DNA from: Cyclobacteriaceae bacterium
Lineage (GTDB): Bacteria > Bacteroidota > Bacteroidia > Cytophagales > Cyclobacteriaceae
Length of the DNA: 64,000 nt
Assembly: GCA_019638395.1 (NCBI GenBank)
Contig: JAHBTX010000001.1
Span: 124,001-188,000, forward strand
Reading direction: 5' to 3'
The notes below the pieces were generated by a model. That model made no database searches. It saw nothing but the letters and a program-made list of their open reading frames with translations, and was not told the DNA's origin. Below are positions 24,114 to 42,080 of this stretch, in pieces; position 1 is the first letter of the stretch, and the number at the start of each line of letters is the position of its first letter. The position numbers and the translations under genes were made by a program.

Positions 24114-25871
24114 TTAATCCTTTAGCCAATCTAGATTGAGATTGTTGATTGTTTCTTGTGGTAATTTCGCAATATCTAAAATCATAAATCCATCTAATGC
24201 CAGATTGAAATCCGGATCGATGTTAAACCCAATTATTCTGGCATTCTGGTGAATATATTTCTTGAGCAACACAGGGGCTGATTTTATGGCGGGCTCTATA
24301 TCGTCTATTATTTTATCTAATTTTTTAATGTCGTTCCCGGTACTATCCAGTAGCGTGGCCGCTTCTGTTAGTATGGTCTTGTCAACCTTATATTTTTTTC
24401 GGGGCTTAATAAATTGGGCCAGGTTTTGATCGAAATAATGACGTTGAATAAAAGCCACAATCAGACTTTTAGAAACTTGCGAATAATAGTTGCTTATGCT
24501 TACCGGGCCTATGATGTACCGGTATTCCGGATTTTTTTTTAACACCGTTAAAATGCCGCGCCATAATAAAAATAAGGGTAAGCGTTTGTTTTGATAGGCA
24601 GGTATAATAAACGACCTACCCAATTCAACAGCCTGACCGAGTATGGGTACAAAGCCTGCTTGCATTCTAAACAAGGTGTTTGTATAAAAGCCTTTTTTTC
24701 CATGTGCATGTAAAATCTCTTTTCCCATTCCAATCCGGTAAGCTCCTACTATCTGCATGGCTACACGATCGTATAAAAACAAATGCTGATAGTATTGATC
24801 GAACGCATCCAAATCAAGTCCTTTATTTGTTCCTTCTCCCTCATGCCTGAAGGTGATCTCGCGCAAACGACCTATTTCAAAAAGCACATTGGGAATAAGT
24901 TGAGCCGGAGCCAGGTACAAATCAAAGTTTTGTTGCGAAACCAGTTTGCAGGAACCAATACGGGTTAAATCTTCGGCTAGTAATTCCGTACTAATACCAT
25001 CTTTTATTACTTCGGGTTCAGGCTTGTTCCCCACGTAAAGTTTTGGAATTGTTATTTTCTTAGTCAGAACTGATCCGAGGCTATACGTTTTAGCGCGCAG
25101 GTAATCACCTAATTGGTCGGCATTGGAAAATACGCCTTGTTCTTTTACCGAAATAGGCGAGCCAATTCTAACGCGCACAATTCGTTTATGCGTAGCTGTT
25201 AATTCTCGTGGTAAGCGCAGGGTACGGAGTAACGGATGGATTAAGCCCAGCAAGTGAAACGACCACCTGTTATGTCCATGAAAATAAATGGGGATAACGG
25301 GTACCTGTGCTTTACGGGCTAACTTAATAGCGGGCTTTTGCCACTCACGGTCTGTAATACCCTTTCTCTTTTTTTGCCACGTAGAAACTTCGCCCGCAGG
25401 AAAAATACCAATGGGGCAACCAGCGGCCAATTGTTCTTTGGCCAATTTCATACCGGTAACACTGGAAGCAACATGCTTAAAGTCTTCAAATGGATTTACA
25501 CTTATAAAATAGTGCTGAATAGGTTCTATCCGTTTTAATAAAAAGTTAGCCAAAATTTTATAATCGGCTCGTCTTTTAGCAACCAGATAAATTAACACCA
25601 AGCCATCAAGCCCACCATAAGGATGGTTGGATACCGTAATAAAAGCACCATGTTGCGGTATGCGTGCAAGTTCCGATTCATCTACTTCTAACTGTATGTG
25701 TGCCTGGCTCAAAAATTCTTCAATAAAGCTCAGGTCTTTATGCGGATAAAGTTTATTGTACAATGCATTTAACTTGTGCAGCCCGGCAAAACGCATAATA
25801 ATGCCCGCCATAAATTTATTTCGGATTCCACTTGCTTTCGAAAATTGATCAAGGCTTACAAGTTTGTGCAT
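24114..25871 (-). CDS. Two-domain acyltransferase: PlsC-like N-terminus fused to OlsB/hemolysin-type GNAT domain
   Basis: 585 residues. Residues about 40-280 are a PlsC/LPLAT domain: SNHPYGGLDGLVLIYLV (His and Asp of the HX4-5D site), FISVNPFED, GIFPAGEVSTW and PVIPIYFHGHNRW. Residues about 320-520 match the OlsB-like N-acyltransferase (hemolysin) domain: LREITFRHEGEGTNKGLDLD, QIVGAYRIGMG and GPVSISNYY. The same order is known from bifunctional OlsF/GlsF enzymes, which make ornithine or glycine lipids by N-acylating the amino acid and then O-acylating the lyso-lipid. Membrane-associated. It reads away from the alpha-glucan cluster across a 201-base divergent gap. Confidence 0.82.
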   Translation of the reverse strand: MHKLVSLDQFSKASGIRNKFMAGIIMRFAGLHKLNALYNKLYPHKDLSFIEEFLSQAHIQLEVDESELARIPQHGAFITVSNHPYGGLDGLVLIYLVAKRRADYKILANFLLKRIEPIQHYFISVNPFEDFKHVASSVTGMKLAKEQLAAGCPIGIFPAGEVSTWQKKRKGITDREWQKPAIKLARKAQVPVIPIYFHGHNRWSFHLLGLIHPLLRTLRLPRELTATHKRIVRVRIGSPISVKEQGVFSNADQLGDYLRAKTYSLGSVLTKKITIPKLYVGNKPEPEVIKDGISTELLAEDLTRIGSCKLVSQQNFDLYLAPAQLIPNVLFEIGRLREITFRHEGEGTNKGLDLDAFDQYYQHLFLYDRVAMQIVGAYRIGMGKEILHAHGKKGFYTNTLFRMQAGFVPILGQAVELGRSFIIPAYQNKRLPLFLLWRGILTVLKKNPEYRYIIGPVSISNYYSQVSKSLIVAFIQRHYFDQNLAQFIKPRKKYKVDKTILTEAATLLDSTGNDIKKLDKIIDDIEPAIKSAPVLLKKYIHQNARIIGFNIDPDFNLALDGFMILDIAKLPQETINNLNLDWLKD

Positions 25872-25934: not shown

Positions 25935-26072
25935 ATTTAATTAAATTTCCTTTAGACTACCAATCCGGAAGCTACCAAACACTTAAATTTTATCGGATTT
26001 TGCGCTAAAAATCGCACTTTTTTCTTGCCTAAATTGGCGGCTTGTAGGCTATTTGCCTTACCTTTAAGCAGT

Positions 26073-27869
26073 ATGGAAAGAGTGTGCATCGCTATCCTGT
26101 TACTAGGTGTTTGGGCCTGCCAAACCCCTAAAGAAAAAATACCAGAACCCATGTTAGAAAAACAAGTTACCAAGCCGGTTATCTACCAAATAATGACCCG
26201 CCTCTTTGGCAATAAATTAACCACTAACAAACCCTATGGAACCTTGGTGGAAAATGGTGTGGGTAAACTAAACGACATTAACGATGCTGCTTTGCAGGGA
26301 ATTAAAGAGCTAGGCGTAACCCATGTTTGGTACACCGGCATAATTGAACATGCCCTGCTCACTGACTACACACAATATGGAATTGCACTCGATGATGCCG
26401 ATGTAGTGAAAGGCAGGGCCGGATCGCCCTATGCTATTAAAGATTATTACGACATCAATCCTGATCTTGCGGTAGATGTTAAAAACCGAATGACTGAATT
26501 CGAAGCCTTGATAAGCCGTACACACGCAGCAGGTATGAAAGTACTTATCGACTTTGTGCCCAATCATGTGGCGCGGGCCTACAAGAGCGATGCAAAACCT
26601 GCCGGTGTAAAAGATTTGGGAGAAGAAGATGATACGTCCGTTTCATTTAAAGCCTCTAACAACTTCTATTATTTGCCGGGCCAAATGTTTCAACCACCGG
26701 CTCGCTACAATCCACTGGCACAGGAAAAAGCAAATACCGAAGACAAAAAGTTTTTAGAAATACCGGCCAAAGTTACCGGCAACGATCAGTTTACAGCAAC
26801 ACCCGGTGTAAACGAATGGTTTGAAACCGTTAAACTTAACTACGGAGTTGATATTCAAAATAACCGGAGCAAGCATTTTGATCCCATTCCCAACACGTGG
26901 GTAAAAATGAAAGACATTCTGGTTTATTGGGCACAAAAAGGTGTTGATGGGTTTCGGTGCGACATGGCCGAAATGGTGCCTGTTGAATTCTGGCAGTGGG
27001 CTGTACCACAAGTAAAGGCTATAGCTCCGCATATTATTTTTATTGCTGAGATTTATAACCCACAGGAATATCGCAACTACATACACACCGGCAAGTTCGA
27101 TTTGCTTTATGATAAAGTGCAGTTGTATGACACGCTGCGCAACCTAACCAGTGGCCAGGGTAATGCCAATTACATTACAGGCATTCAGCAATGGTTAGCC
27201 GATATTAATTCGCACATGTTGCACTTTCTTGAAAACCACGATGAACAGCGTATTGCCTCACGCGATTTTGCGGGCGATCCGTGGAAGGCAGTTCCGGCAA
27301 TGGTAATCAGTGCTACAATCGACAAAGCTCCGGTTATGATTTACTTCGGGCAGGAGGTAGGCGAGCCGGGCTCCGGTGCCGAAGGTTTTGGAGGCGAAGA
27401 TGGGCGCACAACCATATTCGATTATTGGGGTGTACCCGAACATCAGAAGTGGATGAATAGCGGAAAGTTTGATGGTGGCCAGTTAAGCGACAATCAAAAA
27501 GCATTGCGTCAATTCTATGCCGACATTTTAAAGTTTGCTTCTACCAACCCGGCCATTGTGCAAGGTGCCTATTATGATTTAACAGTTTTTAATCAACAGC
27601 AGGGAAATATTCCAAACCTGGTACATGCCTTTGCGCGTGTTCAGGGCGATGAACGATTGGTAATTGTTTCCGGATTTAACGATAAACCGCTGCGTGTAAA
27701 AATTAAACTTAGTGACGAAGTAAAGCAAGCATTCAATATGCAAGCCGACCAGGTGTATGTAGGTCGCGATTTATTGCGCAGTGGTGCCGATATTGGCTTG
27801 AATGCCGAAGCTACATTTGAAGTAGATGTGCCACCTTATGTTTCCTATATTTTTAAAATCAAAAACTGA
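26073..27869 (+). CDS. GH13 alpha-amylase-family lipoprotein, first gene of the alpha-glucan cluster
   Basis: 598 residues from ATG 26073, which I choose because it gives a lipoprotein signal peptide (MERVCIAILLLGVWAC, Cys16); the upstream in-frame ATG at 26025 would bury it. Lipid anchoring places the enzyme in the periplasm or on the surface. The (beta/alpha)8 barrel has its regions intact: VLIDFVPNHV (region I), GFRCDMAE (nucleophile Asp297), FIAEIY (acid/base Glu326) and ENHDEQR (Asp390), so hydrolysis or transfer on alpha-1,4-glucans is expected. A small C-terminal beta domain ends with YVSYIFKIK. Its TGA overlaps the next ATG, so the two GH13 lipoproteins are translated together. Product (maltose or longer) cannot be told. 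Confidence 0.88.
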   Translation: MERVCIAILLLGVWACQTPKEKIPEPMLEKQVTKPVIYQIMTRLFGNKLTTNKPYGTLVENGVGKLNDINDAALQGIKELGVTHVWYTGIIEHALLTDYTQYGIALDDADVVKGRAGSPYAIKDYYDINPDLAVDVKNRMTEFEALISRTHAAGMKVLIDFVPNHVARAYKSDAKPAGVKDLGEEDDTSVSFKASNNFYYLPGQMFQPPARYNPLAQEKANTEDKKFLEIPAKVTGNDQFTATPGVNEWFETVKLNYGVDIQNNRSKHFDPIPNTWVKMKDILVYWAQKGVDGFRCDMAEMVPVEFWQWAVPQVKAIAPHIIFIAEIYNPQEYRNYIHTGKFDLLYDKVQLYDTLRNLTSGQGNANYITGIQQWLADINSHMLHFLENHDEQRIASRDFAGDPWKAVPAMVISATIDKAPVMIYFGQEVGEPGSGAEGFGGEDGRTTIFDYWGVPEHQKWMNSGKFDGGQLSDNQKALRQFYADILKFASTNPAIVQGAYYDLTVFNQQQGNIPNLVHAFARVQGDERLVIVSGFNDKPLRVKIKLSDEVKQAFNMQADQVYVGRDLLRSGADIGLNAEATFEVDVPPYVSYIFKIKN

Positions 27870-29419
27870 TGCGAAAACTAATTGGACTTTTATTAATTGT
27901 TTTTGTCTGGAGTTGTGAGCCCACTCCAAAGTCGGTAGTAAAGTGGCCGCATGGTGTTAACTACGAAGTTTTTGTGCGCTCGTATGCCGATAGCAATGGC
28001 GATGGTATTGGCGACTTCAACGGACTAACGGCTAAACTCGATTATTTGAAAGACTTGGGAGTAGGTGGTATATGGTTAATGCCGATCATGCCTTCACCCA
28101 CGTATCACAAGTACGATGTGATGGATTACAAAACTGTTGATGGCGAATACGGAACAGTAGAAGATTTTAAAAAACTGGTGGCCGAAGCGCACAAACGCAA
28201 CATCCGTATTCTGGTTGATTTGATTTTAAATCACTCAGGTTCTGATCATCCGTGGTTTCAGGAAGCGATTACAGGCAAGGATAACCCATATCGCGATTAT
28301 TACGTGTGGGCAAAAAAAGATTCAATTCGCAACCAGCTTTCCAAAAAAACAACCTCGCTCGATTCGGATAACATTACACAATGGCATGCCGTAAAGGGCG
28401 ATACATTAAGTGAACATTACTATGGATTTTTCTGGGGGGGTATGCCCGATTTAAATTTTGATAATCCTAAAGTAAGACAGGAGTTTGTGGAAATCGGTAA
28501 ATTCTGGTTGGAAGAAATGCAGGTGGACGGATTCCGGTTAGACGCTGCCAAGCATATTTATCCAACCGATCGTGCTGCTGACAATCACGCTTTCTGGATT
28601 TGGTTCCGCGATGAAATGCAAAAAATAAAACCCGATGTGTACCTGGTAGGCGAGGTGTGGAGCAGTGCGCCCGAAGTAGCACCTTACCTGAAAGGATTGC
28701 CGGCCTTGTTTAACTTCGATATGGGTTATGCTATAACCGCTGCAGTTCGGGCCGGTCAGGACACGATTCAATTGATTAATAAATACAAAAGCATTAATGA
28801 CTTTTATCTGCAAACAACGAGCGATTACATTGATGCTACTTTTTTAAAGAATCATGATCAGAATCGGATCTTGAGCGAGTTGGGTGGCGATGAAAATAAG
28901 GCCCGCGTAGCGGCAGCCATCTTGTTTACATTGCCCGGTACACCGTATGTGTATTATGGCGAAGAGATTGGAATGTTCGGTATGAAGCCCGATGAATTTA
29001 TTCGCGAACCTTTTTTGTGGAGCACTGAATCAAGAGACCCGATTATTACAAAATGGGAAGAACCGCGGTACAGCAATCTGAATACGGTAAAGCCTCTTTC
29101 CGTGCAACAAGCAGATCCTAACTCACTGTTTAACTTTTATAAAAAGTTTATTGCTTATCGCAACAGTAGCAAGGCATTAACATATGGTTCGCTGGTGGAA
29201 GCGGATCTGCATGTAAATGAGATTGTGGCTTTGATCCGCAAATATAAAGATGAAGAAAGCTATTTAATTCTGCACAACCTCTCGGATGTGGCTATTACAC
29301 TAAAGCCAGAAGGACAATTAGCAGTATATTCCAAAATAGATTTTGTATCGCAGGGTGAAGTTGTAAAGAATGAAGAAGGTTGGGTAATCCCCGCCTACAC
29401 CTCGGTAATTTTAAAATAG
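27869..29419 (+). CDS. GH13 alpha-glucosidase/alpha-amylase-like lipoprotein
   Basis: 516 residues with a lipobox (LIVFVWSC, Cys16), so probably anchored outside the cytoplasm. It has the oligo-1,6-glucosidase/trehalose-synthase style N-terminus (VNYEVFVRSYADSNGDGIGD, where DSNGDG is the Ca2+ loop), LVDLILNHSGSDHPWF, nucleophile Asp225 (GFRLDAAKHI), acid/base Glu262 (LVGEVWSS) and Asp330 (KNHDQNR). All three catalytic carboxylates are present. It should cut alpha-glucans or maltodextrins to short sugars. The first base overlaps the preceding stop (TGATG), and glgE starts 11 bases after its end. Exact specificity is open. Confidence 0.88.
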   Translation: MRKLIGLLLIVFVWSCEPTPKSVVKWPHGVNYEVFVRSYADSNGDGIGDFNGLTAKLDYLKDLGVGGIWLMPIMPSPTYHKYDVMDYKTVDGEYGTVEDFKKLVAEAHKRNIRILVDLILNHSGSDHPWFQEAITGKDNPYRDYYVWAKKDSIRNQLSKKTTSLDSDNITQWHAVKGDTLSEHYYGFFWGGMPDLNFDNPKVRQEFVEIGKFWLEEMQVDGFRLDAAKHIYPTDRAADNHAFWIWFRDEMQKIKPDVYLVGEVWSSAPEVAPYLKGLPALFNFDMGYAITAAVRAGQDTIQLINKYKSINDFYLQTTSDYIDATFLKNHDQNRILSELGGDENKARVAAAILFTLPGTPYVYYGEEIGMFGMKPDEFIREPFLWSTESRDPIITKWEEPRYSNLNTVKPLSVQQADPNSLFNFYKKFIAYRNSSKALTYGSLVEADLHVNEIVALIRKYKDEESYLILHNLSDVAITLKPEGQLAVYSKIDFVSQGEVVKNEEGWVIPAYTSVILK

Positions 29420-29430
29420 TATAAACAAGT

Positions 29431-31374
29431 ATGTTAAGTGGAAAGAAACGGGTAATTATTGAAAATGTACAACCACAGGTGGACGGTGGATTGTATCCTG
29501 CCAAGCGAACAGTAGGCGAACGAGTGGATGTAACTACAGCCATTTATGGTGATGGTCATGATCATATTCGGGGTGAAGTGTTGTACAAAAAGCATGGTGC
29601 AAAAGATTGGACGCACGTTGAGTTGGCACCAACCTACAACGATGAGTGGCAGGCTTGTTTTTACGTGCCCGAAAAAGGAAATTATGTTTTTACCGTACAA
29701 GCCTGGATCGATCACTTTGAAACATGGTACGATGGTTTTAAAAAGAAAGCGCTTGCCAAAGTAAATGTAACAGTGGAGTTGGCTGAAGGAGTTTTACTCT
29801 TGCAACGATTAGGAAAAACCAATTCATCTCTTCTAAGTATTGCCCGTAAACTAGAAGATAAAAATCAGGAAGTGGCCATTGCTTATGTGTTAAGCGATGA
29901 GTTTGCGCGTATTGTTCACCAAAATCCACTACGCGATAATGAAACAGTATATGAACAGGAGTTCGTTGTTCAGGTAGAGCATACCAAAGCAAACTTCAGT
30001 GCATGGTATGAGTTTTTTCCACGTTCGTCTTCACTCGAATCTGGCAAGCATGGAAACTTTAATGATTGCATCCGCTTGCTGCCGCGTATTGCCGCTATGG
30101 GTTTTGATGTGCTTTACTTTCCACCCATCCATCCGATAGGAAAAGTTAATCGCAAGGGTAAGAATAACAATGTAAGTTCACAACCCGGAGAACCAGGTTC
30201 GCCCTGGGCTATTGGCAGCGATGAAGGCGGGCATAAATCAATTTTATCCGCACTGGGAACACTGGAGGATTTTAAACGCCTGGTGGTGGAGGCTCGCAAG
30301 CTGGGTATTGACATTGCTATGGATATTGCATTTCAATGTGCGCCCGATCATCCCTATGTAAAAGATCATCCCGATTGGTTTAAGCAACGGCCCGATGGCT
30401 CAATTCAATATGCAGAAAATCCACCCAAAAAATACCAGGACATTTATCCGTTCAACTTTGAATCGGACGATTGGCAAAATCTTTGGGAAGAGTTGAAGTC
30501 GGTTTTCTTTTATTGGATTGAACAAGGGGTAACTATATTCAGAATTGATAATCCACATACCAAACCAATTCCTTTCTGGCAATGGGTAATTGCCGAAGTG
30601 CAAAAAGTACATCCGGATATTATCTTTTTATCAGAAGCGTTTACCCGGCCGAAGATCATGGCCTCTTTGGCAAAGGTAGGTTTTACTCAATCCTACACTT
30701 ATTTTACATGGCGTTTTACCAAACAGGAGCTAATGGAGTATATGAACGAGCTTGTGTTTGGTCAATCCAGAAATTATTTCCGTCCAAACTTCTGGCCCAA
30801 TACACCCGATATCTTACCGTATCATTTACAAAACCAGGGTGAGAATGTTTTTATTCTCAGGTATGCATTGGCGGCTACACTTTCCTCCAACTATGGTGTG
30901 TATGGCCCGCCTTACGAATTTGGTGAAAACAGACCGATAGAGGGCAAAGAAGAATATTATAATTCAGAGAAGTACGAAATACGGCATTACGACTGGAAGC
31001 GTACCAACCGACTTACGGATATTATGAGCTTGTTGAATAAAGTGCGTAAAGAAAATGCTGCGCTTCAATCAACATGGAACCTGCAATTCTGCCCGATCGA
31101 AAACAGTCAGATCATCGCCTACCTGAAAGCAACCGATGATCTTTCCAATATTATTCTGGTTGTGGTTAACCTCGATCCAAACAATACACAACACGGCTAT
31201 GTGCAATTACCAAAAGCAAAGTTGCGATTGAGTGAGAAGATCAATTTAAAACTGCACGACTTGGTTACAGACGAGCATTATACGTGGACACAGGAGTGGA
31301 ATTATGTTCACCTCAATCCACACAAAATGCCGTTTCATTTATTTAAAGTAGAAATTCACGAGTCAAACATGTAA
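29431..31374 (+). CDS. glgE: Alpha-1,4-glucan:maltose-1-phosphate maltosyltransferase
   Basis: 647 residues, the normal GlgE size. The N-terminal DUF3416 beta domain (KRVIIENVQPQVDGGLYPAK, WIDHFETW) precedes a GH13_3 barrel with FYFPPIHPIG-type region (DVLYFPPIHPIGKVNRKGKN), nucleophile Asp373 (FRIDNPHTK), acid/base Glu402 (FLSEAFTRP) and Asp460 (FWPNTPDIL). The NPHTKP after the nucleophile is typical of GlgE. It transfers maltosyl units from maltose-1-phosphate onto alpha-1,4-glucan in the cytoplasm, with retention of configuration. The fused maltokinase downstream, two bases away, should supply its donor and GlgB, also downstream, branches its product. Confidence 0.94.
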   Translation: MLSGKKRVIIENVQPQVDGGLYPAKRTVGERVDVTTAIYGDGHDHIRGEVLYKKHGAKDWTHVELAPTYNDEWQACFYVPEKGNYVFTVQAWIDHFETWYDGFKKKALAKVNVTVELAEGVLLLQRLGKTNSSLLSIARKLEDKNQEVAIAYVLSDEFARIVHQNPLRDNETVYEQEFVVQVEHTKANFSAWYEFFPRSSSLESGKHGNFNDCIRLLPRIAAMGFDVLYFPPIHPIGKVNRKGKNNNVSSQPGEPGSPWAIGSDEGGHKSILSALGTLEDFKRLVVEARKLGIDIAMDIAFQCAPDHPYVKDHPDWFKQRPDGSIQYAENPPKKYQDIYPFNFESDDWQNLWEELKSVFFYWIEQGVTIFRIDNPHTKPIPFWQWVIAEVQKVHPDIIFLSEAFTRPKIMASLAKVGFTQSYTYFTWRFTKQELMEYMNELVFGQSRNYFRPNFWPNTPDILPYHLQNQGENVFILRYALAATLSSNYGVYGPPYEFGENRPIEGKEEYYNSEKYEIRHYDWKRTNRLTDIMSLLNKVRKENAALQSTWNLQFCPIENSQIIAYLKATDDLSNIILVVVNLDPNNTQHGYVQLPKAKLRLSEKINLKLHDLVTDEHYTWTQEWNYVHLNPHKMPFHLFKVEIHESNM

Positions 31375-31376
31375 CA

Positions 31377-34300
31377 ATGGCAAGTAAGAACTCCGATGCA
31401 TTATGGTTTAAGGATGCCGTTATCTATGAGGTAAGTGTTCGGGCATTTAACGATAGCAATGCCGATGGTATTGGCGATTTTCCCGGTTTAATTCAACGCC
31501 TCGATTACCTGGAAGACCTCGGTATTAATACCATTTGGTTGCTGCCGTTTTTTCCATCGCCCCTAAAAGACGATGGGTACGATGTTACGGAATACTGCGA
31601 CATCCATCCGGATTATGGAACGTTATCAGACTTTAAACTCTTTTTAAAAGAAGCGCATCGCAGAAACATTCGGGTAATAACCGAGTTGGTGTTAAATCAT
31701 ACTTCTGATCAACACCCGTGGTTTCAGAAATCGCGTAAAGCTCGCTCAGGTTCACGCTATAAGGATTATTACGTGTGGAGCGATAATGCCGATCGGTATA
31801 AAGATGCCCGCATTATGTTTACCGAAGAAGAATCTTCTAACTGGTCGTGGGATAATGAAGCCAAGATGTATTACTGGCACCGCTACTACCGGCACCAGCC
31901 CGAATTGAATTATGAAAACCCCGAAGTGCAATTAGAGATAATTAAAGTGGTTGACTTCTGGATGAAGATGGGTGTGGATGGATTTCGGTTGGCGAACGTT
32001 CCTTTTTTGTTTGAAGAAGAAGGAACCAGTTGCGAAAACTTACCTCAAACACATGCCTTTTTGAAACGGCTTCGGGCGCACATTGATAAGCATTACGATA
32101 ACCGCGTGTTGCTGGCCGAAGCCAACATGTGGCCGGAAGATGCAGCACAATACTTTGGCCAGGGCGATGAGTGCCACATGAATTTTCATTACCCGCTTAT
32201 GCCGCGGTTATACCTGGGCCTGCGCACAGAAGATACATATCCCATCATCGACATTCTGGAACAAACTCCATCTACACCACCCAATGCCCAATGGGCACTT
32301 TTTCTGCGCAACCACGATGAGATTGGCTTGGAGATGGTAACAGAAGAAGAAAAAGATTATCTATTCAAAGCATATGCAACCGATCCGAACACCAAGCATA
32401 ACATTGGTATCCGCAGGCGGTTGGCTCCATTGCTGAACAACGATCGCAGAAAGATTGAGTTACTCTATGCCATTCTGTTTTCATTGCCCGGAACTCCGGT
32501 GCTCTATTATGGCGATGAAATCGGGATGGGTGATAACATTTACCTGGGCGATCGCTTCGGGGTGCGCACACCCATGCAGTGGAACATGAACATCAACGCT
32601 GGCTTTTCAACCGCCAATCCCCAAAAACTTTTTCTGCCGGTTATTACCGATCCGATGTATCGGCACGAATCGATTAACGTAGCCACACAAGAGGAAAATC
32701 CATCATCGTTGCTTTGGTGGATACGCAACCTGCTGAGCATGCGCAAACGCCTTGGTGTTTTTGGAAAGGGTAGTTTAAAATTTATAGAAAGCAGTAACTC
32801 CAAAGTACTCTGCTTTGCGCGGGTACATGAAAAAGAAAGCATTATTGTAGTGGCAAACCTATCGCAGTTTAGTCAGGCTACTACGCTTGATTTAAAAGCG
32901 TTTAAAGATTGTGATATCACTGAGGTATTTAGCCAGAACCGCTTTATGGGGGTGGGCGAGGGCGACTATAACATTACCATAGGCCCCTACGGTTATTATT
33001 GGTTTCAGGCCGATGTATCGGAAAAGAAAGAGCAAACTAATTCAAACGAACTGTTCTTGTTTAAATCAGAACTTTCGTGGGAGCGCATGTTTAGCAACTA
33101 CAACGATGTGCGCGTGCTGGAGCGCAAGGTGCTGCAACCGTTTATGAAGAAATGCCGCTGGTTCGGTGGCAAAGCCCGCGCCATTTCCAAGATCAGTGTT
33201 AATAAAATGATTCCGCTTAAGGTAGATGGCGAATCGCACTACCTGGTGATTGTAGAAGTACATTACGTGCAGCGCCTACCCGAACTTTATTTCTTGCCCA
33301 TGTGCTTCATGCCTTCCGATGGTATGTTCGATAAAGCAGAATATACAACACAAAGTGTAATTTGTCGTGCCGATATACAAGGCAAAGTTGGCTTTGTTGT
33401 GGATAGCAGTTACCACAAAGGCTTCCGCGATTTCTTATTTGTAAGTATGGATCGTAAAGTTCGCGTGAAGGAAGATGAAGGAACGCTGGAGTTTAATAGC
33501 AGTGTGTTTGCCAAACTCAATTCCGATAAAGTAGAATCTAAAATTTTAAAGGCAGATTCGAGCAATACGGCTATAATCTACAACGATAAGTATTTTTTTA
33601 AATTTTATCGTAAAATCGAAACAGAGATCAACCCCGACCTGGAGATTGTACGGTTCTTATCAGAGAATACTTCGTTTCGTAATGCACCGAAATATGCAGG
33701 CAGTATCGAGTTTCGGGATAATGACGGGAAGATTATAGTTTTTGGATTGTTACAGGAAAAAGTAGAGAATCAGGGCGACTCGTGGATTATGACCATTGAT
33801 TCGGTGGGTCGTTTCTACGAGCGTGTAATGGCGAAGGCCAAGAAAGAGAAACTGCCGCACTTGATTAACAATGCGGCAATTCGTTTTGAAGATGCCCCCG
33901 AATTGATTCAGGAATTTATTGGTCGCGGATTTTATGAACGTGTGGTACGCCTGGGCCAACGTACAGCCGAGATGCATTTGGCTCTTGCTTCGGATAAGTC
34001 AAACCCGGCTTTTGCAGCTGAAACGTTTACCACCAATTACCAGCGCTCGCTTTATTCGGCTATGCGCAAATTAACACGCGATCGTTTTAAGTTACTGGAG
34101 CAATCCATGGACAAACTAAATGACGAAACCCAGGCGCTGGCAAAAAAAGTGTTAGCGTTGGAAGATAAAGTGTTGGAGTGTTTCAGCGAAGTTTATCAGA
34201 CCAAGATAAACGCACTTAAAACCCGCATCCATGGCGATTATCACTTGGGCCAGGTGCTGTTTACCGGAAAAGATTTTATTATAATCGATTTTGAAGGTGA

Positions 34301-34700
34301 GCCCGGTTTTAGTTTCAGCGAGCGTAGGTTAAAAAAGAATCCGCTTAAAGATGTAGCCGGAATGATGCGGTCGTTTCACTATGCTGCTTTTGGTAAAATT
34401 TTATTGAATGAAAATTATCGCGAAAAGGATATTGAGTTTCTGGAACAGTGGGCTGAGCAATGGCAGCACTATGTAAGCAGATTTTATTTAGGTGCCTACC
34501 TGGAGCGAATGGGCTCAAAAGCTGAGCTGGGTTTGGAAGATGAAATTTTAATCAGAACGTATTTGCTGGAGAAAGCCATTTATGAATTAGGATATGAACT
34601 GAATGGCAGGCCGGATTGGGTTAACATTCCGTTGCGCGGAATTTATTATCTTATGAACCGGTATTTTCAGGCAAAAGAAGAACGGAAAAAGAAAAGCTGA
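31377..34700 (+). CDS. treS: Trehalose synthase-maltokinase fusion with altered TreS active site
   Basis: 1107 residues: a GH13_16 TreS domain (about 1-560) and a C-terminal maltokinase (about 570-1100). The kinase keeps HGDYHLGQ (Asp954) and DFEGEP, and should make maltose-1-phosphate from maltose and ATP. TreS normally interconverts maltose and trehalose. Here the overall fit is close (YEVSVRAFNDSNADGIGDFP, GTSCENLPQTH), acid/base Glu248 (LLAEANMWPED) and Asp314 (RNHDE) remain, but the nucleophile in GFRLD is changed: residues 202-209 read GFRLANVP, with Ala206 (GCG 31992-31994) at the Asp position. Loss of glucosyl transfer is therefore predicted. The last base of TGA is shared with the glgB start. 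The reading frame is clean, so this is not a frameshift effect. Confidence 0.9.
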   Translation: MASKNSDALWFKDAVIYEVSVRAFNDSNADGIGDFPGLIQRLDYLEDLGINTIWLLPFFPSPLKDDGYDVTEYCDIHPDYGTLSDFKLFLKEAHRRNIRVITELVLNHTSDQHPWFQKSRKARSGSRYKDYYVWSDNADRYKDARIMFTEEESSNWSWDNEAKMYYWHRYYRHQPELNYENPEVQLEIIKVVDFWMKMGVDGFRLANVPFLFEEEGTSCENLPQTHAFLKRLRAHIDKHYDNRVLLAEANMWPEDAAQYFGQGDECHMNFHYPLMPRLYLGLRTEDTYPIIDILEQTPSTPPNAQWALFLRNHDEIGLEMVTEEEKDYLFKAYATDPNTKHNIGIRRRLAPLLNNDRRKIELLYAILFSLPGTPVLYYGDEIGMGDNIYLGDRFGVRTPMQWNMNINAGFSTANPQKLFLPVITDPMYRHESINVATQEENPSSLLWWIRNLLSMRKRLGVFGKGSLKFIESSNSKVLCFARVHEKESIIVVANLSQFSQATTLDLKAFKDCDITEVFSQNRFMGVGEGDYNITIGPYGYYWFQADVSEKKEQTNSNELFLFKSELSWERMFSNYNDVRVLERKVLQPFMKKCRWFGGKARAISKISVNKMIPLKVDGESHYLVIVEVHYVQRLPELYFLPMCFMPSDGMFDKAEYTTQSVICRADIQGKVGFVVDSSYHKGFRDFLFVSMDRKVRVKEDEGTLEFNSSVFAKLNSDKVESKILKADSSNTAIIYNDKYFFKFYRKIETEINPDLEIVRFLSENTSFRNAPKYAGSIEFRDNDGKIIVFGLLQEKVENQGDSWIMTIDSVGRFYERVMAKAKKEKLPHLINNAAIRFEDAPELIQEFIGRGFYERVVRLGQRTAEMHLALASDKSNPAFAAETFTTNYQRSLYSAMRKLTRDRFKLLEQSMDKLNDETQALAKKVLALEDKVLECFSEVYQTKINALKTRIHGDYHLGQVLFTGKDFIIIDFEGEPGFSFSERRLKKNPLKDVAGMMRSFHYAAFGKILLNENYREKDIEFLEQWAEQWQHYVSRFYLGAYLERMGSKAELGLEDEILIRTYLLEKAIYELGYELNGRPDWVNIPLRGIYYLMNRYFQAKEERKKKS

Positions 34701-36661
34701 TGGCAAAGAAAACATCTAAAACAAAAGTTGAAGAACTGGATTCATTCAGCTTGCTCACCGACTTTGATATTCATTTGTTTAAAAGCGGTAAACACTTTAA
34801 ACTGTACGAAAAGTTAGGAGCACACCTGGCTACATTCAAGAAGCAGACGGGTACTTACTTTGCCGTGTGGGCACCCAACGCACGCAGTGTTTCTGTTATT
34901 GGTAACTTTAATCATTGGAATAGTAACGACCACAAACTCTCGCCCCGGTGGGATGAATCCGGAATCTGGGAAGGTTTCTTTCCTGGTATTGGTAAAGGCG
35001 AGGCTTACAAGTATGCTATTCATTCCAATACAGGGGAGTATCTGGAAAAAGCCGATCCATTTGCTTTTTATGCTGAAGTAGCGCCCCGTACTGCCTCTAT
35101 TGTGTGGGATCATGATTACAGTTGGAAAGACCAACTGTGGTTGAACGATCGAAAGAAAAGTGCTGGTAAACCTAAGCCCTATTCCGTTTACGAAGTGCAT
35201 GCCGGCAGTTGGCGCAGAAAGCCAGAAGATGGAAACCGTTCCCTTTCGTATAAAGAGTTAGCAACTGAACTGGTTAACTATGTAAAAGAGAATGGCTTTA
35301 CACATGTGGAGTTTCTGCCCATTATGGAACATCCTTTTTTCGGATCGTGGGGTTATCAATTAACAGGTTACTTTGCACCCACCAGTCGCTTTGGCGAGCC
35401 ACAAGACTTCATGATTTTGGTTGATGCTTTGCATGAAGCGGAGATTGGAGTAATACTGGATTGGGTACCCTCACACTTTCCGGGCGATGCACACGGACTT
35501 TATAAATTTGATGGCACGCACCTGTTTGAACATGCCGATCCCCGCAAAGGATTTCATCCCGATTGGAGCAGTTACATTTATAATTATGGCCGGCCCGAAG
35601 TGCGATCATTCCTTATCAGCAATGCTTTGTTCTGGTTAGATGTTTTTCATGCCGATGGTTTACGGGTAGATGCAGTAGCTTCCATGTTGTACCTCGATTA
35701 TTCCCGCAAGGAAGGGGAGTGGATACCCAATGAATACGGTGGCAACGAAAACATAGAAGCCATTAACTTTTTGAAAGAATTTAATGAAGTAGTGTATGGC
35801 AACTTCCCCGATGTAGTAACGATTGCAGAAGAAAGCACCGCCTGGCCCGGAGTTTCTAAGCCAACGTACCTGGGTGGGTTAGGGTTTGGGCAAAAGTGGA
35901 TGATGGGCTGGATGCATGATACGTTGCACTATTTTAAATCCGATCCGATACATCGTAAATACCACCAGGACGAAATTACGTTTAGCATTGTATATGCCTT
36001 TACCGAAAATTTTATGCTTCCGCTTTCGCACGATGAAGTGGTGCATGGTAAAGGTTCGCTGTTGGGGCGGATGCCAGGCGATGAATGGCGCAGATTTGCC
36101 AACCTCCGCTTGATGTTTACCTACATGTTTACGCATCCAGGAAGTAAACTTTTATTTATGGGCGGTGAGTTTGGCCAAACTGCCGAGTGGAATCACGATC
36201 GCAGCCTCGACTGGCACCTTTTAAATTATGCACCGCACCAGGGTATGCTTACGCTGATACGTGAGTTAAATCAATTATACAAAAACGAACCGGCCTGCTT
36301 TCAATTTCCATTTGATAACCGTGGTTTTGAGTGGGTGGATTATTCCGATCGTGAAAACAGTGTAATGGTGTTTATGCGCAAAACAGAAAACAAACATGAG
36401 TCGATTTTGATTGTTTGTAACTTTACGCCCGAAGTGCGCGAACATTATCGCATTGGTGTGCCGTTACGGGGAACGTATAAAGAAATTTTTAATTCCGATA
36501 ACATAAAGTATGGCGGCAGTGGGTTGTTAAATCAAAGTCTGCTACATACATCACCGGTAAAATATCATAATCGCGATTATTCAGTGTCCATAACGCTACC
36601 TCCGTTGGGCGCTACTGTTTTAAAACTTGTTGAAGAAAAAGCTGAATTTGAATTAGAGTAA
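34700..36661 (+). CDS. glgB: 1,4-alpha-glucan branching enzyme
   Basis: 653 residues, typical for GlgB. The CBM48 domain (residues about 35-130: FAVWAPNARSVSVIGNFNHW) is followed by the GH13_9 barrel: YEVHAGSW, FLPIMEHPFFGSWGYQLTGY, nucleophile Asp324 (LRVDAVASMLYLDYSR), acid/base Glu377 (IAEESTAWP) and Asp445 (SHDEVVHGKGSLL), and a C-terminal beta domain. It cuts alpha-1,4 chains and rejoins them as alpha-1,6 branches in the cytoplasm. It overlaps the upstream fusion gene by one base, so it should act on the linear chains that GlgE makes. All active-site residues are present. Confidence 0.96.
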   Translation: MAKKTSKTKVEELDSFSLLTDFDIHLFKSGKHFKLYEKLGAHLATFKKQTGTYFAVWAPNARSVSVIGNFNHWNSNDHKLSPRWDESGIWEGFFPGIGKGEAYKYAIHSNTGEYLEKADPFAFYAEVAPRTASIVWDHDYSWKDQLWLNDRKKSAGKPKPYSVYEVHAGSWRRKPEDGNRSLSYKELATELVNYVKENGFTHVEFLPIMEHPFFGSWGYQLTGYFAPTSRFGEPQDFMILVDALHEAEIGVILDWVPSHFPGDAHGLYKFDGTHLFEHADPRKGFHPDWSSYIYNYGRPEVRSFLISNALFWLDVFHADGLRVDAVASMLYLDYSRKEGEWIPNEYGGNENIEAINFLKEFNEVVYGNFPDVVTIAEESTAWPGVSKPTYLGGLGFGQKWMMGWMHDTLHYFKSDPIHRKYHQDEITFSIVYAFTENFMLPLSHDEVVHGKGSLLGRMPGDEWRRFANLRLMFTYMFTHPGSKLLFMGGEFGQTAEWNHDRSLDWHLLNYAPHQGMLTLIRELNQLYKNEPACFQFPFDNRGFEWVDYSDRENSVMVFMRKTENKHESILIVCNFTPEVREHYRIGVPLRGTYKEIFNSDNIKYGGSGLLNQSLLHTSPVKYHNRDYSVSITLPPLGATVLKLVEEKAEFELE

Positions 36662-36692: not shown

Positions 36693-39104
36693 ATGTCGGG
36701 TGTAGCGCCACGCAAGTACGTTTGTATTCACGGTCATTTTTATCAACCACCACGCGAAAACGCCTGGTTGGAAGTTATCGAATTACAGGACTCTGCCCAT
36801 CCGTACCACGATTGGAATGAGCGGATAACAGCCGAATGTTATGAGCCTAATGCCACTTCGCGGATTTTAAACGAAGGGGGTGTAATCAAAAACATTGTTA
36901 ATAATTATGCACGCATCAGTTTCAACTTTGGGCCAACCTTGCTTTCGTGGATGGAACAATACACACCAGAGACTTACGAAGCCGTATTGGAAGCGGATAA
37001 ACTAAGTGCGAAAAATTTTGGTGGACATGGTTCTGCTGTGGCGCAGGTGTATAACCATATCATTATGCCGCTGGCTAATCGGGCCGATAAAGAAACGCAA
37101 ATCATCTGGGGTATTCGAGATTTTGAATATCGTTTTAAGCGCAAACCCGAAGGCATGTGGTTGGCAGAAACTGCAGTGGATACTGAAACGCTGGAGGTAT
37201 TGGCTGATAACGATATCCGCTTTACCATACTGGCACCTCGGCAAGCTAAAGCGGTTCGTAAAATTGGTACAGAAGAATGGACAGAAGTAAATGACCGTAC
37301 GGTTAACACAACCAAAGCATACACTTGTAATCTGCCCAGCGGAAAAAGTATTGTCGTTTATTTTTACGAAGGCGATATCTCGCAAGGTATAGCTTTTAAT
37401 GGTTTGCTAAACGATGGAAAACGTTTTGCCGAGCGACTGCTAAGTTCGGTTGAAGCAACCAATGAACCACAGCTTATTCATGTTGCTACCGATGGTGAAA
37501 CCTATGGACATCATCACAAACATGGTGAAATGGCGTTGTCCTATTGTTTGGACTATATTGAGAAAGGAAACCAGGCTCGGTTAACCAACTATGCACAGTT
37601 TCTGGAACTTTGTCCGCCAGAAGAAGAAGCGCAGATAATTGAGAACAGTTCGTGGAGTTGTGTGCATGGGGTAGAACGGTGGCGCTCTAACTGCGGTTGT
37701 AATTCTGGTAAGCCGGGCTGGCACCAACTTTGGCGACAACCCCTGCGCGAGTCGTTGGATTGGTTGCGTGATCAAGCCATTGAAATTTTTGAACGGGAAG
37801 GATCGAAGGTATTGCGTAATCCGTGGGCAGCCCGCAACGACTATATTCATGTAGTGTTGAAGCGTACCGATGAAAATGTAAAACGGTTTTTGAAAGATCA
37901 TGCGCTAAGCGATGCAAGCGCAAACCGGATTTTGCGCATCCTTGAAATTCAGCGCCACGCCATGCTCATGTACACCAGTTGTGGTTGGTTTTTCGATGAG
38001 ATTTCCGGTATTGAGACCACACAGGTTTTGCAATACGCTTGTCGTGTAATTCAGTTGGCCAACCAGATTGGCGATGTGGATCTGGAACCCGAATTTATTC
38101 AGCGCCTGGAAGCTGCACCCAGCAACATAGTTCAGTACGAAAATGGTGGCGGTGTTTACAAAAAGGCTGTGTTACCCTCGCGCACTAACCTGCAACGTGT
38201 GGGTATTCACTATGCGGTTTCATCTATTTTTGAAGACGAACCCGAAGCCCTTACCATATTTAATTACACCACCGCCAACGAAACGTTTGTAAAAAAAGAA
38301 GCCGGAGAACAAAAGTTAGTTCTCGGTATTACGAAAGTCAAATCGTTAGTTACCCGATCGGAAAAGAAGTTTGCCTTTGCTGTTATCTACCTCGGTAAGC
38401 ACAACATTATCGGCAATATTTCTTTGGATATGGCACCCGATAATTTTGCGGGCATGCAGGTAAGAATGGTAAAAGCATTTGAAGAAGGACGGTTAGGCGA
38501 TATTATCGGGTTAATGCAAATGTATTTTGGCCCGGAGAAATATACCATCTGGCATTTGTTTCAAGATGAGAAACGCAAAGTATTAGACAAAATTTCGCAG
38601 GAGAGCATGGCCGAACTGGAAAGCTCGTTGCGCAAAAGTTATAACCGCGATTACCCGCTTATCAATGCGCTGGCTAATAATGATATTCCAATTCCTAATA
38701 CGTACAAAACTACATTTGAATATGTATTGAATGCTGATTTGATCCGTACGTTTCAATCCGATAAAATCAATATCAAAGAGATGGAACGGATTGTGGCCGA
38801 GCTTGCCCGCTGGAATTTAAAGATTGAAGACCCGCGTAAACTCTCGCGCCTGGCGGGTGAGAGCGTGTTTAAAGAACTGAAACGCATTAGCAGCGAGCGC
38901 GAAAATGTGAAACGCATCCAACGCCTCAACCGGATGTTTCCATTGCTGGAAAAATTTCAACTCGAACCAAACTTTCATAAAAGTCAAAATCTCTATTTCG
39001 AAATTTCGATGGAGAACAAACAAAAAGGACAACCCCAACCGGAAGAAGCCTGGGTAGAACAATTTAATTTGTTGGGTAAGAATTTGGGGGTTAGGGTAGA
39101 GTAG
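36693..39104 (+). CDS. GH57-family protein with DUF3536 domain
   Basis: 803 residues. The N-terminal GH57 barrel opens with VCIHGHFYQPPRENAWLEVI and has the likely nucleophile Glu159 (GMWLAETAV) and acid/base Asp267 (HVATDGETYGHHHKHGE). The C-terminal DUF3536 part is helical and contains the conserved CSWSCVHGVERW-like stretch (here NSSWSCVHGVERWRSNCGCN). GH57 enzymes include amylases, branching enzymes and amylopullulanases. There is no signal peptide, so it is probably cytoplasmic and may trim or rearrange the glucan made by GlgE/GlgB. It is 31 bases after glgB and is the last gene of the cluster. Precise activity is not established for DUF3536 proteins as far as I know. Confidence 0.85.
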   Translation: MSGVAPRKYVCIHGHFYQPPRENAWLEVIELQDSAHPYHDWNERITAECYEPNATSRILNEGGVIKNIVNNYARISFNFGPTLLSWMEQYTPETYEAVLEADKLSAKNFGGHGSAVAQVYNHIIMPLANRADKETQIIWGIRDFEYRFKRKPEGMWLAETAVDTETLEVLADNDIRFTILAPRQAKAVRKIGTEEWTEVNDRTVNTTKAYTCNLPSGKSIVVYFYEGDISQGIAFNGLLNDGKRFAERLLSSVEATNEPQLIHVATDGETYGHHHKHGEMALSYCLDYIEKGNQARLTNYAQFLELCPPEEEAQIIENSSWSCVHGVERWRSNCGCNSGKPGWHQLWRQPLRESLDWLRDQAIEIFEREGSKVLRNPWAARNDYIHVVLKRTDENVKRFLKDHALSDASANRILRILEIQRHAMLMYTSCGWFFDEISGIETTQVLQYACRVIQLANQIGDVDLEPEFIQRLEAAPSNIVQYENGGGVYKKAVLPSRTNLQRVGIHYAVSSIFEDEPEALTIFNYTTANETFVKKEAGEQKLVLGITKVKSLVTRSEKKFAFAVIYLGKHNIIGNISLDMAPDNFAGMQVRMVKAFEEGRLGDIIGLMQMYFGPEKYTIWHLFQDEKRKVLDKISQESMAELESSLRKSYNRDYPLINALANNDIPIPNTYKTTFEYVLNADLIRTFQSDKINIKEMERIVAELARWNLKIEDPRKLSRLAGESVFKELKRISSERENVKRIQRLNRMFPLLEKFQLEPNFHKSQNLYFEISMENKQKGQPQPEEAWVEQFNLLGKNLGVRVE

Positions 39105-40046: not shown

Positions 40047-41030
40047 CTACGCCAACTCCGACTTCAACTGCAACTTATCCAGGTAATCCCACACCAAACT
40101 ACTGGCACCCAAGATAGGAGCAGCCTGGTTTTGCATAGCCGAGGGAAGAACTTTTATCTTTCCACGGAACAAAGGCATCAGGTTAGCTTCCATGTGTTTG
40201 ATGGTAGGGCGGAAGATCAGATCGCCCGCCATCGATAAGCCACCGAATAAAAAGATGGCTTCGGGGTCGGTGTGTACCACGGTTTCGGCTAACTTCATTC
40301 CGAGAATCCGGCCCGTATATTCAAATGCTTCTATCGCCACAACATCGCCACGGTGAGCAGCCTCCGAAATCATTTTAGTGTTCAGATCTTCGAAGCTTAT
40401 ACCGCGCAGTTCGCTGGGCTCCAGGTGATCGGCCAATAGTTTATAAACTGTGCGCTTGATACCTGTTGCCGATACATACGTTTCCAGGCAACCACGCTTG
40501 CCACAATTGCAATATCTTCCAGCAGGATTTACAGAAGTGTGGCCCACTTCGCCTGCAATTCCATGATGACCGTTTAGTAGCACACCCCCACATACAAAAC
40601 CACTACCCAATCCGGTGCCGAGGGTAATCACCACAAAGTCCTTCATGTTTTTGGCATTGCCATAAATCATTTCACCCACGGCTGCCGCGTTGGCATCGTT
40701 GGTAAGAATGCAAGGAATATCAAACTCTTCTTTAAACAATCGGGCCAACGGTAATACACCTTTCCATTTTAGATTGGTAGCGCGTTCGATGTTACCGGTA
40801 TAATAATTTCCATTGGCAGCACCTACACCAATACCCACAATGCGTGTGTCGCCTGGCAATTCCTGAATTCCCTTCCGCAGCGCATCGGCCATACCATCAA
40901 AATAATCCTGAAACTCTTCGTATTGCGTGGTGGGAATGTTGCCCTGATGCAGCACATTGCCGGCCCGATCTACAATACCATACTTTGTGTTTGTCCCGCC
41001 AATATCAATGCCGATGGTTAAATCTTTCAT
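40047..41030 (-). CDS. ROK-family sugar kinase, probable glucokinase
   Basis: 327 residues. IGIDIGGTNTKYGIVD is the ATP-binding phosphate loop, Asp112 (NDANAAAVGE) is the likely catalytic base, His164 (EVGHTSV) and Cys174/176/181 (CNCGKRGCLE) form the ROK zinc site. ROK glucokinases phosphorylate glucose to glucose-6-phosphate. The gene begins 5 bases after the pfkA stop, in an operon whose first enzymes are Pgi and PfkA, which supports glucose as substrate. No DNA-binding domain is fused to it, so it is a kinase rather than an NagC-type repressor. Converges with the + strand gene at 39217-40020. Confidence 0.88.
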   Translation of the reverse strand: MKDLTIGIDIGGTNTKYGIVDRAGNVLHQGNIPTTQYEEFQDYFDGMADALRKGIQELPGDTRIVGIGVGAANGNYYTGNIERATNLKWKGVLPLARLFKEEFDIPCILTNDANAAAVGEMIYGNAKNMKDFVVITLGTGLGSGFVCGGVLLNGHHGIAGEVGHTSVNPAGRYCNCGKRGCLETYVSATGIKRTVYKLLADHLEPSELRGISFEDLNTKMISEAAHRGDVVAIEAFEYTGRILGMKLAETVVHTDPEAIFLFGGLSMAGDLIFRPTIKHMEANLMPLFRGKIKVLPSAMQNQAAPILGASSLVWDYLDKLQLKSELA

Positions 41031-41035
41031 GATGA

Positions 41036-42019
41036 TTAGATAGATAGTATTTTGGAAATGCGAAGTGACTCGCTGTCGATTTCGTGATGATGTTTCATGA
41101 TGGTATCAAAATCGTTATACACAATATGGTTATCCCGAATGCCAACCATCACATCTCTTTCTCCTTTCAATAAACCTTCTACTGCGGCTACACCCATCTT
41201 ACTGGCCAACACCCGATCGAAGTAGGTAGGAGTGCCGCCCCGTTGCAAATGCCCCAGTATGGTTACTTTAATATCGAAGTAATTGTTGCGCTCTGAAAAC
41301 TTCTTCGCCAATTCCATAGCACCACCCAGTTTACTTCCTTCGGCAACTACTACTAAGCTTGATTTTTTATTTGTTTTTCCGCCTTCATCCAACTTGGCAA
41401 ACAATTCTTCCAAAGTCATTGATTCTTCTGGAATAATGGTTGCTACGGCACCACCGGCAATACCACAGTTAATAGCGATATAGCCAGAGTTGCGGCCCAT
41501 TACTTCAATAAAGAACAAGCGGTTGTGCGAGATGGCTGTGTCGCGGATTTTATCGATAGCTTCAACAGCGGTATTGGTGGCAGTATCGAACCCAACCGTG
41601 TAATCTGTTCCGGCAATGTCGTTATCAATTGTGCCGGGAATACACACGGCTGGGATGCCATATTCTTCTTGCAGTTTATGCAAACCCGTAAAGGTACCAT
41701 CACCACCAATGGCAACCAGTGCTTCAATGCCGTGTTTCTTTAGATTGGCGAAGGCTTTCTCACGGCCTTCTTTGGTTCTAAACTCCTGGCTGCGGGCCGA
41801 TTTTAAAATAGTACCACCGCGTTGAATGATGTTACCCACCGAACGGGCACCCAGTTTTACGATGTCGCCTTCAATCATGCCCTCATACCCTTGCATGATT
41901 CCATAAATCTCTTTTTTGTAATAGATAGCTGCGCGCACAACAGCTCTGAGTGCTGCATTCATGCCGGGTGCATCGCCACCCGAAGTGAACACACCTATTT
42001 TAGAAATTTTTGAATCCAT
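41036..42019 (-). CDS. pfkA: ATP-dependent 6-phosphofructokinase
   Basis: 327 residues. GVFTSGGDAPGMNAALRAVV is the nucleotide-binding start, GGDG at 105-108 has Gly rather than Asp after GGD, which indicates ATP rather than pyrophosphate as donor, and PGTIDNDIAGTDYTVGFDTA holds the catalytic Asp132. IEVMGRNSGYIA and ILGHLQRGGTPTYFDRV complete the substrate site. It commits fructose-6-phosphate to glycolysis in the cytoplasm. It lies 61 bases after pgi and 5 bases before the ROK kinase on the same strand. Confidence 0.96.
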   Translation of the reverse strand: MDSKISKIGVFTSGGDAPGMNAALRAVVRAAIYYKKEIYGIMQGYEGMIEGDIVKLGARSVGNIIQRGGTILKSARSQEFRTKEGREKAFANLKKHGIEALVAIGGDGTFTGLHKLQEEYGIPAVCIPGTIDNDIAGTDYTVGFDTATNTAVEAIDKIRDTAISHNRLFFIEVMGRNSGYIAINCGIAGGAVATIIPEESMTLEELFAKLDEGGKTNKKSSLVVVAEGSKLGGAMELAKKFSERNNYFDIKVTILGHLQRGGTPTYFDRVLASKMGVAAVEGLLKGERDVMVGIRDNHIVYNDFDTIMKHHHEIDSESLRISKILSI

Positions 42020-42080
42020 TAAAGCTTGAACAAGAGGCCCAAAAATACGCGTAATACCGTGTTATCCAAGCGTTAAGGTT

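Follow-up and report, generated by a model that had tools for sequence, protein, structure and literature searches.

In trehalose synthase (TreS) the catalytic nucleophile forms a glycosyl-enzyme intermediate, and the report describing this (PMC4257617) also records that alanine variants of the DrTS +1 residues Tyr213, Glu320 and Glu324 are inactive and that Glu/Asp and pocket residues of TreS build structural networks as well. The M. tuberculosis TreS variant D238A is described as catalytically inactive and folded, and as crystallising like the wild type (PMC11019547). In mycobacteria the TreS tetramer carries Pep2; by the same account (PMC6509496) Pep2 is more active with M. tuberculosis TreS, to an extent later described as modest, and stimulation of the kinase by TreS is essentially absent in the M. 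smegmatis pair. The chlamydial fusion of TreS with maltokinase (TreS-Mak) is reported to be a dimer, not a tetramer (PMC7935935). The precedent for TreS as a scaffold is thus mixed, given the absent stimulation in M. smegmatis and the dimeric chlamydial fusion. As regards the maltokinase, HGD is assigned the catalytic base, Gln310 and Asp322 are the Mg ligands and Lys413, Tyr416 and Tyr420 the maltose residues, and replacement of Asp by Asn at the Mg ligand abolished M. tuberculosis maltokinase activity (PMC4306142).

The window analysed here, a stretch of 64,000 nucleotides from a Cyclobacteriaceae bacterium (GenBank assembly GCA_019638395.1, contig JAHBTX010000001.1), encodes at 31377..34700 (+) a TreS-maltokinase fusion whose TreS half has no nucleophile. 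The ORF of 1107 aa has an intact frame, and scores 838 bits on TIGR02456 (cut-off 678) and 443 bits on TIGR02457 (cut-off 375). A profile match, an AlphaFold model and a match to the solved TreS 5x7u (Thermobaculum) delimit a GH13_16-like pseudo-TreS domain, residues 10-544 (31404..33008, +). The model of this domain (pLDDT 93.5, pTM 0.92) has 5x7u as its best solved match (TM 0.97, 1.5 A) and matches 8uqv with a TM of 0.95; a full-length model of the fusion built with 17 close relatives reached a pLDDT of 52 and was not used. By overall sequence and fold the domain therefore belongs to GH13_16, and alignment shows that the general acid/base Glu248 (32118..32120, +) and the transition-state stabiliser Asp314 (32316..32318, +) are retained, whereas the catalytic nucleophile Asp is replaced by Ala206. 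The codons at 31980-32003 (GGA TTT CGG TTG GCG AAC GTT CCT) encode residues 202-209, GFRLANVP, in which GCG at 31992..31994 (+) is Ala206, and the Asp of 5x7u aligns opposite this residue. A preliminary description of this DNA had placed Ala206 at the position of the nucleophilic Asp, which the codons confirm; the residues it gave for the segment are correct, but its span, 31983..32003, opens on the first base of Phe203 and so leaves out Gly202 at 31980-31982. It had also stated that Glu248, Asp314 and the kinase motif HGDYHLGQ (residues 952-959) are kept and that the frame is clean, with no indel artefact. Both points hold, since all of these residues were found in the window protein, the 1107-codon ORF is intact and the loss is common to the lineage. 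A sequencing error, an indel or a base-call error of one assembly is ruled out, as relatives in the lineage also lack the Asp.

The alignment of the window protein with 5x7u contains one gap of one residue, about 80 residues before Ala206, and shows no other Asp among the residues neighbouring Ala206; alignment with relatives, a check proposed in the preliminary description, likewise placed no other Asp at the nucleophile position. Below, copies whose TreS half lacks the nucleophile Asp are called dead, and those that have it live. The other active-site residues of TreS are almost all in place, which would suit an isomerase still working with another acidic residue as its nucleophile, but we regard this as extremely improbable since no Asp or Glu lies near position 206 in the alignment and 103/103 live rows use Asp. 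Loss of isomerase activity in the TreS half is instead strongly supported by inference: the half would be unable to interconvert trehalose and maltose because no glycosyl-enzyme intermediate can form. The preliminary description had drawn this conclusion too, and the inactivity reported for the engineered Asp-to-Ala variant D238A (PMC11019547) agrees with it.

The Asp was found to be absent from position 206 in 29/29 copies in the family (67-100% identity, window included), which carry Ala, Ser, Pro or Gly there; these come from 29 of the 196 genomes in the family survey, each with a dead copy that is a close orthologue. Among named copies at no less than 59% identity it was absent in 35/35, and the closest relative, L125, is 97% identical and also has Ala at position 206. 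Named dead loci include Chryseolinea serpens, Chryseosolibacter indicus, Chryseotalea sanaruensis and many Cyclobacteriaceae MAGs, and dead copies from Saprospiraceae, such as that of Phaeodactylibacter luteus, carry Thr or Asn. For the two dead groups we use the order names that we take to apply, Cytophagales and Saprospirales. Other TreS-Mak matches in the family, at about 46-53% identity, had Asp in 30/30 of those read out of 40 matches, as had kinase-less TreS in 11/11 of those read out of 22. Surveying the order (291 genomes, 49 with a match) gave 8 dead copies, all from the window's own family, 22 read with Asp and 19 not read; the class (395 genomes, 11 with a match) gave 4 dead and 7 with Asp; and the order of P. 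luteus (198 genomes, 20 matches in 19) gave 5 dead and 15 with Asp.

A set of 170 distinct full-length fusions was gathered by similarity to the window protein, dropping rows identical over 450 residues and leaving out rows shorter than 900 residues. It held 67 without Asp and 103 with it, a split sorted by the residue itself, so that the question of how many homologues share the Ala is answered by a loss that is lineage-wide. At position 206 the dead rows carry Pro (19), Ser (16), Thr (14), Ala (13), Gly (4) or Asn (1), and the codons in rows without Asp are GCN, TCN, CCN, ACN, GGN and AAT. In a tree of 111 rows, on which 55 of the 67 dead rows were placed, both dead groups were free of Asp rows, and the live fusions, which come from several phyla, formed one side with a support of 99; position 206 must have changed no fewer than 16 times within the 55 dead rows, and not at all within 51 live rows. 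In a free tree of 38 rows the Saprospirales dead copies grouped with live ones (support 90), which would mean two losses, and one dead clade was not rejected for the same 38 rows (AU p 0.50). Either one or two losses of the nucleophile would agree with these trees. As read from these sequences, the loss is a conserved state of an ancient lineage, not a local or private mutation.

The diversity at position 206 also bears on the proposal that the TreS half runs some other reaction that needs no nucleophile from the enzyme, in the manner of an inverting phosphorylase-like GH13 in which phosphate, say, or a different anion fills the gap left by the Asp. The general acid/base and the stabiliser are retained in nearly all rows, and positions 207 (Ser/Asn) and 210 (Phe) are shifted in nearly all members, which would favour it. 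However, six chemically different residues at position 206, Pro included, arising through no fewer than 16 changes, are unlike a working catalytic site, and we consider such a reaction very unlikely.

Selection nevertheless acts on the TreS half. Nineteen pairs were tried for dN/dS, of which ten had saturated TreS-half dS and one is lacking, and the values quoted are for the four dead pairs with dS <1.3: 0.013 (window vs L125), 0.020 (L103 vs L104), 0.027 (L111, from C. serpens DSM 24574, vs L010) and 0.059 (L132 vs L135). In a paired comparison of the nine genomes in which both a dead and a live copy were read, out of 12 two-copy genomes, divergence of the TreS half was equal in dead and live copies (median 0.165 vs 0.165; of 36 genome pairs, the dead copy was the more divergent in 15), and the kinase half diverged by 0.185 in the dead copy vs 0.372 in the live copy (dead lower in 36/36 pairs). 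Each of the 29 family orthologues, which were taken with no requirement of full length, has an alignment spanning at least residues 5-1104. That the TreS half is decaying and awaiting deletion could be argued from position 206, whose rate of change puts it in the top 9% for the domain, but the dN/dS of the first two pairs, a divergence equal to that of live paralogues and the end-to-end alignment of the family copies all speak against it; decay is rejected by the dN/dS and the paired-genome comparison, and seems to us a most improbable account. A catalytic residue lost lineage-wide and purifying selection on the domain together mark the TreS half as a probable GH13 pseudoenzyme of the ISA2 kind.

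The residues around the vacated position are largely in place. Equivalents of DrTS Asp63, His106, Asn253, His318, Asp319 and Arg398 were unchanged in 63/63 dead rows, and in the 52 Cytophagales rows these six, together with Arg148 and Arg207, were kept in 52/52, and those of Glu251 and Glu320 in 51/52. The Glu251 equivalent is Asp in L123, L141 and L200. The main shifts in the Cytophagales rows are of DrTS Tyr213 to Phe (48/52; Phe210 in the window) and of Ala210 to Ser or Asn (51/52; window position 207), so that the +1 subsite of the window protein keeps Glu315 and Glu319 (DrTS Glu320 and Glu324) and has Phe210 for Tyr213. An intact -1 pocket of this kind could make the TreS half a maltose or trehalose sensor, in which binding of the disaccharide and closure would switch the kinase on or off; the nucleophile would then have been lost to let the half detect its ligand and not convert it. 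The near-complete retention of these pocket residues in Cytophagales fits this proposal, as does the reported change of conformation in D238A TreS, to which a trehalose analogue binds (PMC11019547). Against it, the pocket was no better kept than other live-invariant sites (13/17 vs 142/192, Fisher p = 1, Cytophagales), and the Saprospirales copies have lost the gate residue Arg145 and the +1 residues Glu315 (now Asp) and Glu319, with pocket sites if anything worse kept (9/17 vs 136/192, p 0.17). Special retention of the active-site pocket was thus borne out in neither group, and we hold the sensor proposal to be unlikely.

The kinase half, in contrast to the TreS half, looks from its motifs like a working maltokinase. 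Its domain (residues 576-1091; 33102..34649, +) was found by a profile match and matches the solved structures 4o7o, 5jy7 and 4u94. The catalytic loop HGDYHLGQ (34230..34253, +), with Asp954 and Gln959, and the DFE motif (34287..34295, +), with the Mg ligand Asp971, are present with the roles assigned in PMC4306142, and Lys1066, Tyr1069 and Tyr1073 complete the key Mak/Pep2 residues in the window protein. The kinase core (Asp954, Gln959, Asp971) was intact in 65/67 dead-TreS rows vs 74/103 live-TreS rows. The two dead rows with an altered core are L146:2404-5709, from a Fulvivirga MAG, which reads HGN, and L123:10001-13336, from the SKYG22 MAG, in which Gln959 is Arg and Glu248 is Asp; no GlgE was found in either genome, although both genes remain in an amylase-GlgB-GH57 cluster. 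L134, whose 3.5 Mb genome likewise gave no GlgE match, combines a dead TreS with an intact kinase core. For the named loci with flanks, taken from lists drawn by hand that leave out loci with short flanks, rows whose locus includes GlgE had an intact core in 34/34 dead and 21/21 live cases, and rows without it in 6/7 dead and 3/10 live cases. For live rows the association has a Fisher p of 5e-5, on rows that are not independent. The genomes of the seven altered live copies in this table do carry GlgE elsewhere; kinase integrity is thus tied to GlgE in the neighbourhood, not in the genome.

Those altered copies belong to a set of mirror pseudoenzymes, in which the TreS Asp is intact and the kinase residues are altered, making up 29/103 distinct live rows (L203-L216, L159-L162, L165, L168, L176, L057, L060, L061, L063, L064 and L192-L196). 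Coverage was at least 99.6% for TreS and at least 91% for the kinase in dead rows, and at least 97% for the kinase in the 29 live rows with an altered core, although these rows were picked as full-length, and the keeping of both domains is partly due to that choice. Kinase-less TreS occurs in the family, and the survey took in fusions and such TreS. It could be envisaged that the two tasks of a bifunctional TreS-maltokinase ancestor were divided between lineages by mutual inactivation with the domains still fused, one lineage keeping the kinase with the TreS barrel as a sugar-sensing pocket for a trehalose-free GlgE pathway, and another the isomerase with a ruined kinase. Phaeodactylibacter luteus has one copy of each kind, L197 with Thr206, HGDYHLGQ and DFE, and L216 with Asp, HGDLQLEK and NFE. 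In two-copy Cytophagales genomes, however, the kinase core of the live copy was intact in 9/9 read, so that mutual loss is not general, and we put this scenario forward as a doubtful one.

The gene order in the window is AmyA, AmyB, GlgE, fusion, GlgB and GH57, with spacings from one-base overlaps to a 31-base gap. AmyA (26025..27869, +) and AmyB (27869..29419, +) are GH13 amylases (PF00128) with catalytic motifs present and lipoprotein-like N-termini, and on the latter ground look like exported lipoproteins; the true start of AmyA is perhaps an internal ATG, and AmyB matches SusG_C at 26.3 bits, slightly below the cut-off of 27. GlgE maltosyltransferase (29431..31374, +) lies 2 bp upstream of the fusion, scores over the cut-offs of PF11896 and PF21702 and has the catalytic motifs RIDN, LSEAF and NTPDIL. 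The start of the branching enzyme GlgB (34700..36661, +), found as an ORF with a profile match, overlaps the stop of the fusion by one base. GlgE and GlgB, with their catalytic residues, thus stand in one operon with the fusion, as in the GlgE pathway. A profile search identified the last gene (36693..39104, +) as a GH57 plus DUF3536 protein; DUF3536 (PF12055), a domain of unknown function, occupies its residues 343-623. This GH57 is 44-48% identical to the GH57 of seven Pontibacter loci, SGAir0037 not being among the comparisons. The operon order recurs in relatives, some without AmyB, and L123 and L146 without GlgE. Catalytic motifs of GlgE, GlgB and AmyA were present wherever covered in 34 loci; for AmyB the motif columns are mixed with TreS matches in loci without the gene, and only rows with the Asp motif represent AmyB. 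In 29/29 family genomes GlgE is single and beside the dead copy, as judged by comparing coordinates by eye. An Rfam search of 24-43 kb gave no match.

Two neighbouring sets of genes were also noted. On the minus strand at 24114-25871 lies a fusion of an acyltransferase with a GNAT-type acetyltransferase domain (PF19576/PF01553 plus PF13444), which presumably resembles bifunctional ornithine-lipid enzymes. Adjoining the glycogen operon at 40047-43733 (-) are what look by sequence like a ROK-type sugar kinase and a 6-phosphofructokinase, together with a phosphoglucose isomerase (PF00342); relatives of the ROK-type gene, the first of this set, lie near the operon in 16/35 named lineage loci.

The genome from which the window comes (99.12% complete) gave no match for TreY (E <= 1e-40), OtsA (1e-20), MalQ or GlgC, with thresholds from 1e-20 to 1e-40, and no second TreS was matched. 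L002, the next best match, was rejected as a second live TreS, as it scores 336.6 bits on TIGR02456 against the cut-off of 678, and belongs to the phosphotrehalase/alpha-glucosidase type of GH13. Thus, among the genes surveyed (TreY, OtsA, MalQ, GlgC and TreS), neither the trehalose supply nor the active TreS of the TreS-Pep2 route was found. The 17 dead-only family genomes, the window's included, had TreY in 0, MalQ in 0, OtsA in 2 and GlgC in 4, dead-only meaning that, of up to three candidates scored, none but the dead copy matched at E 1e-100. The 12 with a second copy, which was read in nine, had TreY in 12, MalQ in 11, OtsA in 12 and GlgC in 0. Of 29 live-only genomes, 12 were chosen, with TreY in 9/12, and seven of these, five being left out, were searched for MalQ (7/7), OtsA (7/7) and GlgC (0/7). 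Eight further dead-copy genomes (L123, L146 and six from Saprospirales) had TreY in 0/8, MalQ in 1/8, OtsA in 6/8 and GlgC in 3/7, G456 being left out of the GlgC search; the OtsA count indicates that freedom from trehalose is not universal. As a separate observation, a GT5 match occurred in 43/43 genomes searched, the best one mostly a short frame, and the sole one in the window's genome is a short GlgA-like frame of 292 codons (G000:C23:204510-205178). GlgA-GT5 fragments have been described in Bacteroidetes (PMC11046441).

The nearly unchanged TreS half beside a working-looking kinase suggests a support or sensor in a trehalose-independent glycogen pathway. We consider it probable that the TreS half, no longer an isomerase, is retained as a scaffold, which may also bind sugar, for a maltokinase that supplies GlgE with maltose-1-phosphate independently of trehalose. 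The TreS half would fold as a trehalose synthase unable to make the glycosyl-enzyme intermediate, and the fused maltokinase would need it as an oligomeric platform and activator, perhaps with a maltose-binding regulatory pocket. Maltose may come from the breakdown of imported or internal alpha-glucan by the operon amylases and GH57; the kinase would convert it to maltose-1-phosphate, which the adjacent GlgE would add to glycogen for branching by GlgB, leaving the GlgE pathway uncoupled from trehalose. Since the amylases look exported, cytosolic maltose would need uptake or the GH57 of the operon. MalQ can supply maltose for the pathway in P. aeruginosa (PMC11046441); as MalQ was not found in the window's genome and a Pontibacter GH57 from a similar locus behaves as a 4-alpha-glucanotransferase (PMC11206854), the GH57 is a candidate source. 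Where trehalose metabolism is lacking, a working TreS might divert maltose, which may explain the loss of the nucleophile. The scaffold role and the amylolytic maltose source, both of which we infer and both raised in the preliminary description, agree with the gene content of the operon and with the lack of matches for trehalose genes. Conservation of Glu248, Asp314 and the -1 pocket, however, is not strictly needed by a pure scaffold and would count against one.

As the dead proteins pass TIGR02456 by score, their annotation would lead one to expect a route from trehalose to glycogen that is probably not there. The lineage is also a natural experiment that bears on the reason for keeping TreS and maltokinase bound together: in the fusions read, each half has lost catalytic residues in some lineage with both halves still present, and the effect of TreS on the kinase could be tested directly, without isomerase activity interfering. 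Searches of open-licence PMC full texts found no report of a nucleophile-less TreS-Mak or of mutual inactivation.

The TreS-Mak fusions of Estrella lausannensis and Pseudomonas aeruginosa are described with the same two-domain order and an active kinase, and Chlamydiae share the glgE-treSmak-glgB operon company with the window. However, the former two are reported to convert trehalose to maltose-1-phosphate, whereas the window lineage is without the TreS nucleophile. The Pontibacter sp. SGAir0037 GlgE locus shares, by its description (PMC11206854), the amylases, GlgE, GH13_16, GlgB and GH57, and also has TreY, TreZ and GH77; the Pontibacter TreS copies L138, L143, L144, L152, L156, L167 and L170 keep the Asp, unlike those of the window lineage. 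In the mycobacterial TreS:Pep2 complex (5jy7, PMC6509496) TreS is a platform for the maltokinase, and the window TreS model matches its TreS chains with a TM of 0.93-0.94. There the two are separate proteins and TreS is active, whereas in the window they form one polypeptide in which the platform is presumably catalytically void. The same Asp-to-Ala lesion in M. tuberculosis TreS-D238A (8uqv, PMC11019547) was engineered, and that of the window lineage is natural and its loss of Asp conserved. GH13 pseudoenzymes in glucan synthesis are already known from plant ISA2, a natural pseudoenzyme of alpha-glucan synthesis described as having lost its nucleophile, being kept by selection and working with a partner (PMC12510319). 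ISA2 is, however, a separate plant subunit in which at least 4 of 5 catalytic residues are varied (PMC12510319), whereas the main losses of the window-type fused domain are the nucleophile and one +1 Tyr.
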